Shown: positions 1,661 to 5,188 of the stretch, piece after piece | How the letters are laid out: each line of letters starts with the position of its first letter | How positions within the stretch are numbered: the first letter of the stretch is position 1 | Virus record (IMG/VR): IMGVR_UViG_3300031933_000228 | Coordinates: 1 to 28,199 of that record | Direction: 5' to 3' (one strand) | Origin: a virus | Length of the DNA: 28,199 bases | Program-made: the position numbers and the translations under genes | The notes under the pieces: generated by a model | The model's database searches: none | What the model saw: only the letters and a program-made list of their open reading frames with translations | Told to the model about the DNA's origin: nothing

Positions 1661-4600
1661 TTACTTAAATCCAGTGAAGCTACGCAGTACGCGTTCAATG
1701 GTTTCTATGTTTGATCCGTTCGCTAAAGACCCAGAGGCATCGACATAGTTCTCAACTGAGTTAAGCTTAGCGTCGATTTCAGCTACAGCATCTTCTGCAA
1801 ACACAAAATGGGTACTCACTCTCGTTCCATTCAAGTCAGACGCTACTCTGACCCCGCGGCTTTACCCGCTGCCCTGGCTTTCACCAGGATACTAGACTAT
1901 ATCTTCACCCACTACACTGGCGTGCAGGGTGCTTCCCATTTGGGGCGGCCAATCGCTTGTCGCTCTACAGTGTGGCTAACACTTAGTCGTTGGACGTTCC
2001 CCCTAGCCTGTCTCCCGACAGTCCTTAGGGGCTTCGCTGCTGATCGCCCATTGTTAACTCGGGTTAGGTTTACGATCACCATACCGAATCCCCATACTTT
2101 TTTCTACTTTCGTAACCGTCGCAAATGCCCTTTAGAGCTGTGCTGTGGTGTTTGGGGCTTTAGGGTCTTCCAGTCAATTAGAGAAGGATCCAGCTGAACA
2201 TTACTGCCCAGTGGGACGTTGATTGGTAACAATCATTCATCGCCGTCGTACCTATTGTCCACTGTAGTCGCGACGCTACAGCCGGTGTGCTTCGACACCC
2301 GCCCTAGGCTTTCCCTAGGGAGCAGACCATATCTTGACCTTCAGCATTACCTGGTAAGGCCCCTCCCGTTTGGCAGGCGCTTGCCCGCTACTCCGCGCTA
2401 CCGGATGGCCGTTGAACACATCCCTTAGCCTTAGCCTTAGGGACTTCGCTGCGTCGGTTGTCCAATCCTTGAAGGTTTTTACCGTGCCCCTCACTTCCAT
2501 TACTGGGAGGGGTGTTACTCTCGGTTTCCCGGAGTAAGGGGTACTTCAAGGCTGTAAGGATTTTCCCGCAATTAGAGAGGATACCATACACAGTTACCCA
2601 TGTATGGGACTATCGCCACATATCGTTAACTAATATACCGTTTATATTGCAGCTGCCACTGCCATTTTCCAACATTTTATTTAAAACATACCCACTGACG
2701 CCCACTAACCTCGCAGCACTAGCTATGCTGACTAACTCAGCCATAACTACACCATCGGGGCCTGTTACTTTAAGTTCTCTAGCTAATCCAGACCTAATCA
2801 TGTCTTGCTGTATATTGACGTGCTGTGGCCATGGTGTGCTGTCGTTTTTAAACTTAAACTGCAGGCCGGGCGGCCATACCTTTTTACAGCCAGCTTTACA
2901 GCGGTTATTAACTGTATCCGCAGTAACGTTAAGTCTACTGGCCGCTTCAGATAAGCTGAAATATTCCACCACTTCGTCGGTATGACAGTCTCTAACCAGA
3001 ACGGATATGTTCTCATTCCGTAGGCCAGTGCTATATGCGTGTCTGCAATTTTCAGCTCTAGTTGCCCACTCTAAATTACCAAGACTATTATCAAGCTTAA
3101 TGCCATTTTTGTGGTTAACGTCCAGCTTATCTACAGATGGCTCATACGGAATATATGTCAAGGCCAGTAAGCGGTGTATTGGGTATACCCTTCTACCGCC
3201 AACATCTGGCTGCATGCCAACCATACTGTAACCAGCCTTACCTACATAAGTAGACAATGTCCTCTGTGTCGGTATGCTGAAAACCGTACCTGTTTCATTG
3301 ATAAGGTATCTAGATAGACCGGGAATAGATCTGTATCCCGTTAATTCGGGTAAACAGATACCAGAGTCGGGATATCTCCATACCAGGTTGGCTGGAGATA
3401 CGTTATTTGGATCGCCATCAAGATACAGCACATCCAATTTAAACCAATATTTAGTGGGCAGTGTCAAGTTTTTAGTGACGGCGTTTATTAATACCGCCTC
3501 ACGTATAAACATAATAGCGTCGCGATACCGTACGCTAAATATCCTTGGGTATCCATCTTTACTGGCCAATTTTGCCAGATTGTTATTTGAGATACTTATG
3601 CGTGACTGCGTATCGATGGTTAGCATGTTAAAGGGATATGGCAGTTCCTCTTTAACGGGTATTTCTCTGTACTTAGTTAACATTTTAGCATCCTACATAT
3701 TTAAAGGTATAGGATACTAAATATATGGTCTTAATCAGCGCCGAGCCCGGATATTGCAAATGGACTTACGATTGTAGTTGAGATAAATTCGCTTTTACCG
3801 ACAGTGTTTGGAAACTCAGGGAACACCTGTCCCTCAGATTCCAGCTCCCAGCTTTCATTATACTCGTTTAAAATGTGAGAGGTTACGGTAGAGCGTAAGT
3901 ATACGGTTGATGGATACGTGGAACCCTGTCCCGTTACGGGATAACGGGTAATATAGCAACGTACCCGATGCACGTACTGCTGGGCCTCAATATAGAAATA
4001 CTCCGCCCAGGTTAACGGGCGTACTGTAGAGACATCTTTATCCTCGGGTAACTCAGCGATTGAATCCAAAAGCTTGAAGCCTTTCTCATCCTGATAGACG
4101 AGTTTAAGGTAGTGACCGTTTACCATAATGGGTCGATGGCGACGTTCGACCTCACTGAAGGCTTTAATCAGTTTAGCTCGACCGGCTTCTGTGGCCCAAC
4201 TTACACGCTCAGTCTCATCTAGCTTCACCCGGTGTGAGGTAAGGGTTTTAGGGTCAATGAGGTAAGGTTCATAATCGGCTTCCGCAATTAGGTCCCGTGC
4301 AATGCCATTGGGCATTTGAAAGCCGGTCATAACCGGTTCGGTACCTTTAATGAACTGGTAGATCCCCACTTGGGTGGTGGTCAGGTCAAAACTGCGCGGC
4401 CCATCCAGATCAGAACCCGCTGGATCCATAGCTGAGATTACGTTGGCTGTCGCAAAGGCCACTCGACGAGATCCCCATTTAGACTGTAGGAAGCCTTGCT
4501 TGCCCCCTAACATACCCATGATGATCGTCCAGATCTGTTGGACGGAGGATTGGATAGACCAGCGCGTCGCATTGAGTACGGGGTCGTTCTTAAAGGCGAG

Positions 4601-5188
4601 GGCTTCTGAAATTCCGTTGGTAGCGGCAATCACCTTACGGTAGAGCTTATTGATCTCCTGCTCAACCGGACGATCTTGCTCGTCAATGTCCAGATCCCGA
4701 AGACCTGCGGGCATGACGATTAGAAAGTTAAGGACAGACTTGTCCCTGTACTTGTTGATGAGATCAATGACGATATCACGACGATAGGACTTCGTGCGGG
4801 GAATCTCGATCTCTTTAAAGTGCTTCATGAAGAAGGCATAGCCAGTTTCACCTTCGAGTACATCTGAACGTACGAAGTCTTTTAACTCAGCGTCCCAGAC
4901 CGCATATGCGCGGCCCTGCATAATGTCTTTATAAAGACTCTTTAGACGGGTAATATCTTCAAAGACCTTAGGGTGAAGAACTTGAGTCCGTAAGTTAATA
5001 TACCCATGGCGAGTCATACGACTATCACTGCCGACAGGGCCAAAGATTAGATCAGAGTAGAGTCCTGTAGGATGGAACTCTCGACCCTGCACAAACATCT
5101 CTAATGACTTAACGGGTAAGAGACCCGCAATGCGTTGGAGACGATTTTCTAGCAGGGCAATGTTGAAAGGTTTACTTCTATTGGACAT
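1661..5188 (-). CDS. Phage RNA polymerase beta-prime subunit, N-terminal part; three exons interrupted by two group I introns
   Basis: Proposed exons on the minus strand are 5188-3734, 2250-2235 and 1818-1661, giving about 542 residues. Exon 1 (485 aa) carries beta-prime signatures in order. MPAGLRDLDI with NKLYRKVI (about 160-190) corresponds to PPDLRP...LYRRVI. KWGSRRVAFATANVI (about 235-250) corresponds to GKRVDYSGRSVI. RYPVTGQGSTYPSTVYLRST (415-434) corresponds to the NRAPTLHR region. Exon 1 ends ...GLGAD and then runs into a stop at 3731. Joining GAT at 3734 to TAC at 2250 restores GADYDGDE, the metal-binding NADFDGD motif. Joining to 1818 gives DGDELSTHFVFAEDAVAEI, the same spacing as DGDEMNLHVPQSEETRAEL of cellular enzymes. 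The end is FTGFK-stop at 1661, soon after the active site, so the rest of beta-prime must be encoded elsewhere (phiKZ gp180/gp80 arrangement). The ATG has AGGGA about 8 nt upstream. The exon 3 junction is the least certain. Confidence 0.85.
1819..2234 (-). ncRNA. Group I intron 2 of the RNAP beta-prime gene (no ORF)
   Basis: A second complete core follows on the minus strand. The P element AATTGACTGGAAGACC is at 2164-2179 and Q GCAGCGAAGCCCC at 2028-2042. A P6-type stem CCCCTA...TAGGGG has an inner CTGTC...GACAG hairpin. R CAACGACTAAGT is at 1981-1992 and S AAGATATAGTCT at 1894-1905. P7 is GACTA with TAGTC. CCTGG(TGAAAG)CCAGG and GCGG...CCGC follow as P9 hairpins. A candidate P1 pairs exon TGAAT with guide GTTCA further downstream, leaving the required U.G pair at the splice site and placing the 5' cut after 2235. 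The 3' cut after G1819 is chosen by protein alignment; an alternative cut after GAT (2239), joined to AGA at 1822, cannot be excluded. No protein gene lies in these 416 nt. Confidence 0.8.
2610..3683 (-). CDS. HNH homing endonuclease with NUMOD-type DNA-binding repeats, intron encoded
   Basis: The 357-aa protein lies wholly inside intron 1, upstream of the ribozyme core, the usual place for a homing endonuclease that spreads its intron. A NUMOD4-like segment (about 116-170, YRSIPGLSRYLINETG) leads into an HNH_3 module: IHRLLALTYI at 169-178, DVNHKNGIKLDNS at 188-200 and LGNLEWATRAENCRHA at 201-216. H191 is the likely general base. Two helix-turn-helix repeats follow, FSLSEAASRLNVTADTVNN (242-260) and VSIASAARLVGVSGYVLNKM (318-337), matching NUMOD1. 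Residues 84-104 (DVLYLDGDPNNVSPANLVW) look like a decayed second HNH half. The start ATG follows AGGATGCTAAA, and that ribosome site is inside a hairpin. It likely cleaves an intronless allele of the polymerase gene; activity is inferred. Confidence 0.88.
   Translation of the reverse strand: MLTKYREIPVKEELPYPFNMLTIDTQSRISISNNNLAKLASKDGYPRIFSVRYRDAIMFIREAVLINAVTKNLTLPTKYWFKLDVLYLDGDPNNVSPANLVWRYPDSGICLPELTGYRSIPGLSRYLINETGTVFSIPTQRTLSTYVGKAGYSMVGMQPDVGGRRVYPIHRLLALTYIPYEPSVDKLDVNHKNGIKLDNSLGNLEWATRAENCRHAYSTGLRNENISVLVRDCHTDEVVEYFSLSEAASRLNVTADTVNNRCKAGCKKVWPPGLQFKFKNDSTPWPQHVNIQQDMIRSGLARELKVTGPDGVVMAELVSIASAARLVGVSGYVLNKMLENGSGSCNINGILVNDMWR
3684..3721 (-). promoter_or_regulatory. Hairpin sequestering the HNH ribosome-binding site
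   Basis: On the minus strand TTTAGTATCCTA (3721-3710) pairs with TAGGATGCTAAA (3695-3684) over 12 bp with one G.U pair and a 14-nt loop. The 3' arm contains the AGGA ribosome site and abuts the ATG at 3683, so translation from the long polymerase transcript should be blocked. This resembles control of endonuclease genes inside T4 introns. The AT-rich loop (CCTTTAAATATG) could hold an internal start site, but this is not shown. Confidence 0.6.

Follow-up and report, generated by a model that had tools for sequence, protein, structure and literature searches.

The window analysed here is a whole IMG/VR virus record of 28,199 bases, a metagenomic 28-kb contig from a giant phage. Judged by homology, its minus strand carries the gene (N-terminal part) for the beta-prime subunit of a phiKZ gp180-type virion RNA polymerase (vRNAP), split by two introns (Table 1). 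The protein encoded by exon 1 gave tblastn matches in 295 phage records, many of them from jumbo phages and bearing annotations as the beta or beta-prime subunit of RNA polymerase; 272 of the matches extend over at least 80% of its length, and all are below 60% identity. Together with the alignments, these records give full-length homology to gp180-type proteins, and the annotated phiKZ homologue, gp180, is a vRNAP subunit (PMC8287921). Furthermore, an alignment profile matches the beta-prime subunit of phage AR9 (7s01, E=3.8e-16), and profile residues 474-532 align with residues 447-506 of E. coli beta-prime, the DFDGD region, whose motif lies in the double-psi beta-barrel. As an earlier sequence-only reading of this DNA had noticed, exon 1 stops directly after GLGAD, at the first catalytic aspartate (D1).

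Table 1. Features of the interrupted beta-prime gene (positions in the window; a caret marks a splice junction)
Feature	Position	Strand	Details
Exon 1, vRNAP beta-prime (gp180-type) gene	3734..5188	-	ORF of 485 aa, ends GLGAD-TAA (first catalytic Asp, codon GAT)
Group I intron 1, site A, 1483 nt	2251..3733	-	GAT^TAAGAC ... GGACAATAGG^TAC; RF00028, 60.5 bits; exactly absent in L012
Intron 1 catalytic core	2302..2644	-	Rfam match
Intron 1 ORF for a putative HNH homing endonuclease, 357 aa, in P1 loop	2610..3683	-	Pfam HNH_3 (PF13392), E=9e-13, 48.1 bits (cutoff 24.8)
Intron 1 internal guide sequence GUCC	2607..2610	-	Pairs U.G, A-U, G-C with exon ...GAU; directly 5' of P2 hairpin
Micro-exon, 12 nt (most likely extent)	2239..2250	-	TACGACGGCGAT, Y-D-G-D (catalytic D2 and D3); from junction comparison with relatives
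Group I intron 2, site B, 416 nt, no ORF	1823..2238	-	GGCGAT^GAATGA ... TTGAATGGAACG^AGA; RF00028, 68.9 bits
Intron 2 Rfam match	1872..2240	-	5' edge reaches 2 nt into the micro-exon
Intron 2 internal guide sequence GUCC	2214..2217	-	Pairs with exon GGCGAU: U.G, A-U, G-C
Exon 3	1661..1822	-	RVSTHFVFAEDAVAEIDAKLNSVENYVDASGSLANGSNIETIERVLRSFTGFK, stop TAA; from relatives and alignment

Both introns exceed the gathering score of RF00028 (50) and cover positions 1-253 of the model, the conserved catalytic core P3-P8, so that the covariance-model search bears out the earlier suggestion of two complete group I cores flanking the YDGD codons. Similarly, the exon ends (GAU^) and intron ends (..ATAGG^ and ..GAACG^) agree with the group I rule, invoked in that reading for the outer junctions, that exons end in T and introns in G. 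The guide of intron 2, like that of intron 1, lies directly 5' of the P2 hairpin, and two more pairs are possible beyond a bulged C. In intron 1, the guide overlaps the TAG stop codon of the HNH ORF, the guide G being the last base of the stop (2610). P1 has only three contiguous pairs in each intron, and P10 is weak, with 2 bp for intron 1 by inspection and none clear for intron 2. Another candidate guide for intron 1, an AUUAGU further upstream, in the ORF, that could pair with GCUGAU, was not adopted, as it is distant from P2 and puts a U-A pair at the splice site. Tandem duplication of a single intron was also ruled out, since the nearest relatives of the two differ (site A introns of L203, L215 and L248 for intron 1; introns of L012, L011 and TSL-2019 for intron 2). 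The HNH protein of intron 1 is 34% identical to phiKZ gp179 over 350 aa (E=1e-62).

Between 3767 and 1700, no frame of the minus strand encodes a YDGD or FDGD apart from the 12 nt between the introns, TACGACGGCGAT, and the claim that the motif is supplied only at this spot in the roughly 2 kb after exon 1 is therefore upheld; the only other D-G-D in that interval (LYLDGDPN) lies within the intron ORF. By simple arithmetic (96/4^12 12-mers), about 0.01 occurrences of a 12-mer encoding [FYH]DGD would be expected by chance in 2 kb of one strand, and one in the right phase that also obeys the junction rules would be rarer still. The introns had been proposed to bracket all three metal-binding aspartates; D2 and D3 do lie in the micro-exon, but D1 is the end of exon 1.

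Two relatives from IMG/VR provide natural controls for the predicted junctions. In L012, exon 1 (143 differences in 1455 nt) runs directly into TTCGATGGCGAT, so that intron 1 is absent to the base, and site B holds a 416-nt intron that is 97.6% identical to intron 2 of the window. L011 also has a site B intron, which is 69% identical to intron 2 and carries its own HNH ORF of 414 aa. The window and both relatives share ..GAATGRAACG^AGAGT at the junction of intron 2 with exon 3. Beyond it, L011 and L012 read AGA GTT TCC ACA CAT and the window AGA GTG AGT ACC CAT, all of the changes being synonymous (R V S T H).

These comparisons bear on the length of the micro-exon, which had been read as 16 nt, TACGACGGCGATGAAT, joined to TG at 1818 to give YDGDEL. 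That version is in frame too, its exon ends in T and its intron in G, and its spacing fits the homologues equally well. However, L011 has no GAAT after GGCGAT (it reads GGCGAT^AAAAAG), and placing the second junction at 1818 would leave T as the last intron base in both L012 and L011 (GAGAGT^TT). Furthermore, the U at the end of the longer exon has no G partner in P1, where the hairpin puts an A opposite, and, in 126 intact relatives, DGD is followed by T, M, Q, R, K or A but never by E, whereas the R of the shorter version does occur. The ends of the relatives' introns fit ..TGAAnnnAACG^, and the phiKZ intron ends in the same style (CTGAACATAACG). Because of the missing GAAT in L011, the intron ends in both controls, the phiKZ-style intron end and the residues found after DGD, we place intron 2 at 2238-1823, which moves each of its junctions by 4 nt from where they had been put; exon 3 starts at 1822 with AGAGTGAGT / AGAGTGAGTACC. 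The exon is thus most likely 12 nt long and encodes YDGD without E, and a 16-nt exon seems highly improbable.

Differences between the window and the two controls are clustered at the edges of the intron cassette, with seven to eight in the last 30 nt of exon 1 (binomial p 0.02-0.002) and five among the 12 nt at the start of exon 3 (binomial p under 1e-4). Such clustering would be consistent with co-conversion as the cassette moved; a chimeric assembly would explain it too, but is less likely. The second possibility has to be weighed, as the contig is metagenomic and its close relative L012 has intron 2 alone: a phage carrying the site A intron may have occurred together with another carrying the site B intron, and a joining of their reads might also account for the clustered differences. 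A join within 12 shared nucleotides would, however, be unusual, and all four junctions obey the splicing rules. Exon 3 directly past intron 2 also differs from L012, independent loci with double introns exist (L215, L225 and L248, described below), and the clustering also fits co-conversion during homing. We therefore consider an assembly artefact very unlikely.

Very probably, then, two group I introns bracket a YDGD micro-exon, and their splicing would yield a beta-prime protein with an intact DxDGD motif. Intron 1, with its putative HNH homing endonuclease, follows the first catalytic Asp codon (LGAD^) and intron 2, which has no ORF, the third (YDGD^). In each case the upstream exon end ..GAU would pair with the guide GUCC, with U.G at the splice site and G as the last base of the intron, and both excisions would be ordinary guanosine-initiated group I reactions joining exon 1, the 12 nt and exon 3. 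The micro-exon would thereby double as the 3' exon of intron 1 (UAC) and the 5' exon of intron 2 (GGCGAU). That this splicing takes place in infected cells, and in what order, we infer from sequence features; similarly, homology to phiKZ gp179 suggests that the HNH protein drives the homing of intron 1 into site A. The predicted product has 542 aa (GLGAD-YDGD-RVSTHFVFAED), acquires its DxDGD motif only once all three exons are joined and, as anticipated, can be aligned with gp180 homologues, being collinear with intact relatives such as L013 (SGLGADFDGDRGSTTG / GLGADFDGDRGSTTG). Since intron 1 begins with an in-frame TAA and intron 2 with GAA TGA, translation of unspliced RNA would end at LGAD, or at LGADYDGDE. 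As YDGD is needed for catalysis and is flanked by both introns, the enzyme would work only if both were removed exactly.

Could the gene instead be truly broken, with a non-functional polymerase truncated at LGAD or with another protein supplying the metal-binding motif? The annotated gp180 of phiKZ likewise ends at LGAD. In phiKZ, however, the missing part is found after a group I intron of its own: downstream of the annotated gp180 come gp179 and a group I intron (92 bits), and then TTCGACGGGGAC, so that this site A intron interrupts the gene and gp180 as annotated is without its catalytic motif. Furthermore, LGAD followed by a stop, which the sequence-only reading had considered as a possible natural end of the protein, is contradicted by 126 relatives that continue without interruption into LGAD-[FYH]DGD, and L012 has the motif too. 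A broken gene is thus exceedingly improbable.

A further reading would add to the one preferred here and not replace it. In some transcripts the exon might be skipped, if the 5' splice site of intron 1 were linked to the 3' splice site of intron 2, to give an in-frame but catalytically dead beta-prime without YDGD, possibly acting as a brake on the virion polymerase. Loss of 12 nt keeps the frame and removes exactly YDGD, and the two introns apply a shared guide core, GUCC, to identical exon ends (GAU). The phages Twort (PMC3073962) and SIOphi (PMC11878797) offer documented cases in which an exon between group I introns is skipped. In the window, there is no sign of selection for skipping, which may be mere noise, and we regard this reading as rather unlikely.

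The window is not unique, as a wider comparison indicates that the DxDGD loop has been invaded repeatedly by group I introns. Viral contigs were scanned four times with protein guidance, which yielded 157 different sequences of the gp180-type gene. Of these, 126 are intact, about 27 are interrupted within the loop, and a few could not be read where a contig or frame ended. Six insertion registers are represented: GAD^ (site A), which is used most often; one base further; two bases further; FD^GD (pir03 and L215); YDG^D (L225); and DGD^ (site B; the window, L011, L012 and VP4B). The guide tracks the register, as GUCC for GAU^, GGUC for GACU^, GAUC for GAUU^, GAGUC for GACUU^, GUCG for CGAU^ and GCC for GGU^, and GUCC is found in nearly all GAU^ introns, including those of phiKZ, MS32, TSL-2019, L203 and L215. 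When the guides were shuffled among 35 introns, the observed pairing was reached in 0 of 20,000 permutations, a test that is not blind, since the register was already known when the guide positions were chosen by inspection.

Adjacent introns with micro-exons of 6-12 nt occur at no fewer than two other vRNAP loci (L215 and L225) and at least one non-virion RNAP (nvRNAP) locus (L248). In L215, two RF00028 matches flank a 6-nt exon, TTCGAT; in L225, the exon has 8 nt (ATGACGGT) and the locus is incomplete, the contig ending inside intron 2. L248 (IMGVR_UViG_3300037323_000212, minus strand 2523-1365) has three group I introns in an nvRNAP beta-prime gene, and its exons (..AAAGGAT^, TCAACGCTGAT of 11 nt, TTCGATGGTGAT of 12 nt and CAGATGAAC) were checked against the uninterrupted, 50% identical homologue of phage FLC9; like the window, L248 has an intron at site A as well as at site B. 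Among the viral contigs searched, no other record spans the same A plus B double junction in a gp180-type gene, and the pattern of the site A 3' end had no match in the genome contigs.

Several further loci were seen in passing. The contig of L215 has an nvRNAP beta-prime gene (L254, G003:C1:77000-82500) with four group I introns and exons that apparently encode PNAD (12 nt) and FDG (9 nt), the outer junctions being provisional, and that of L203 has one (L257, G006:C1:37500-41500, about 1700-2450) with two group I introns around DFDG and an exon of about 14 nt, TCGATTTCGATGGT, whose first junction is provisional. In Photobacterium phage PDCC-1 (MN562221; L170/L251; 5431-7155), the intron looks chimeric, with a 5' part and HNH ORF like those at site A of Vibrio phage 2 TSL-2019, a 3' end like that at site B of VP4B and no YDGD between the exons; this is either a double intron collapsed in assembly or a real loss of catalytic codons. 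Exon 1 of L238 (5420-5915) stops after MGADFD, and its exon 3 resumes past DGD, with TISF; the only GGTGAT that could supply the missing GD lies about 46 nt into the intron, and a 46-nt segment is too short for a group I intron. In L247 and L249, a different beta-prime-like gene (YDGDALWGELP / FDGDALWGELP) has introns of the site A type, with GGACAATAGG^T at their 3' end. Group I matches number nine in the 113 kb of the L215 contig (G003) and eight in the 70 kb of the L248 contig (G005), and these intron-rich contigs include an intron pair in a DNA polymerase-like gene (L256).

Codon usage within the loop is also skewed. At D1 (site A), 87 of 99 intact representatives (88%) use GAC, compared with 50.5% over all Asp codons, uncorrected for kinship; the share of GAC is 53% at D2 and 61% at D3. 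Every carrier of a register-A intron has GAT at D1, because the U.G rule demands U at the exon end. The skew would fit either avoidance through GAC or GAT imposed by the introns, and synonymous GAC at D1 is possibly a defence against introns that need this U. Tentatively, and with rather less than even confidence, we suggest that, in the multisubunit RNA polymerases of jumbo phages, the DxDGD loop may be a battleground at the level of codons. In both polymerases, GAU-recognising introns (guide GUC) would strike each catalytic Asp in several registers and accumulate, up to four together, with exons of 6-14 nt left between them; uninvaded phages would resist through GAC at the favoured site, and the window would represent one stacked state.

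Parallels exist in several known systems. Gene 180 of phiKZ is the same gene with the same insertion site (GAD^[FY]DGD), a homologous HNH ORF and the guide GUCC, but it has the site A intron alone and no micro-exon. The intron of PhiPA3 gp210 (Birkholz et al. 2024, PMC11620839) likewise belongs to group I, bears an HNH ORF and interrupts a virion RNAP gene of a jumbo phage, where it is inserted after conserved Asp codons, and its homing endonuclease has been shown experimentally (PMC11620839); unlike the pair described here, it is single and lies in the beta (gp178-type) gene. Vibrio phage VP4B, L011 and L012 share the register of intron 2, after YDGD, but their site A is empty. Several group I introns per gene are known from Twort, phiNIT1 and SIOphi, with a small internal exon between introns in phiNIT1 (PMC11878797), although these introns (PMC3073962, PMC11878797) lie in other genes and do not define a micro-exon in a catalytic loop. 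Coding exons of 12-15 bp between introns also occur in fungal mitochondrial cob, cox1 and cox2 (PMC6506933), which are not phage genes and are not tied to a catalytic metal-binding loop. A literature search found no paper describing the gp180 intron or a micro-exon in the catalytic loop. Homing endonucleases, group I introns and exons of very small size were already known; the repeated subdivision of the DxDGD loop appears to be a new variation on them.

This recurrence makes the micro-exon more interesting than a single oddity would be. Group I introns are expected at conserved sites, but two stacked within 12 nt, around an exon that holds two catalytic aspartates, put the minimal length of an exon to the test, as one exon has to serve as the 3' exon of one intron and the 5' exon of the next. 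Furthermore, for many polymerase subunits of jumbo phages, including phiKZ gp180, the annotated end is an intron artefact, and the protein as predicted lacks the catalytic motif. Finally, the correspondence of guide and register, together with the GAC skew, may allow direct tests of how introns choose their sites and of possible evasion by phages at the active site of their polymerases.
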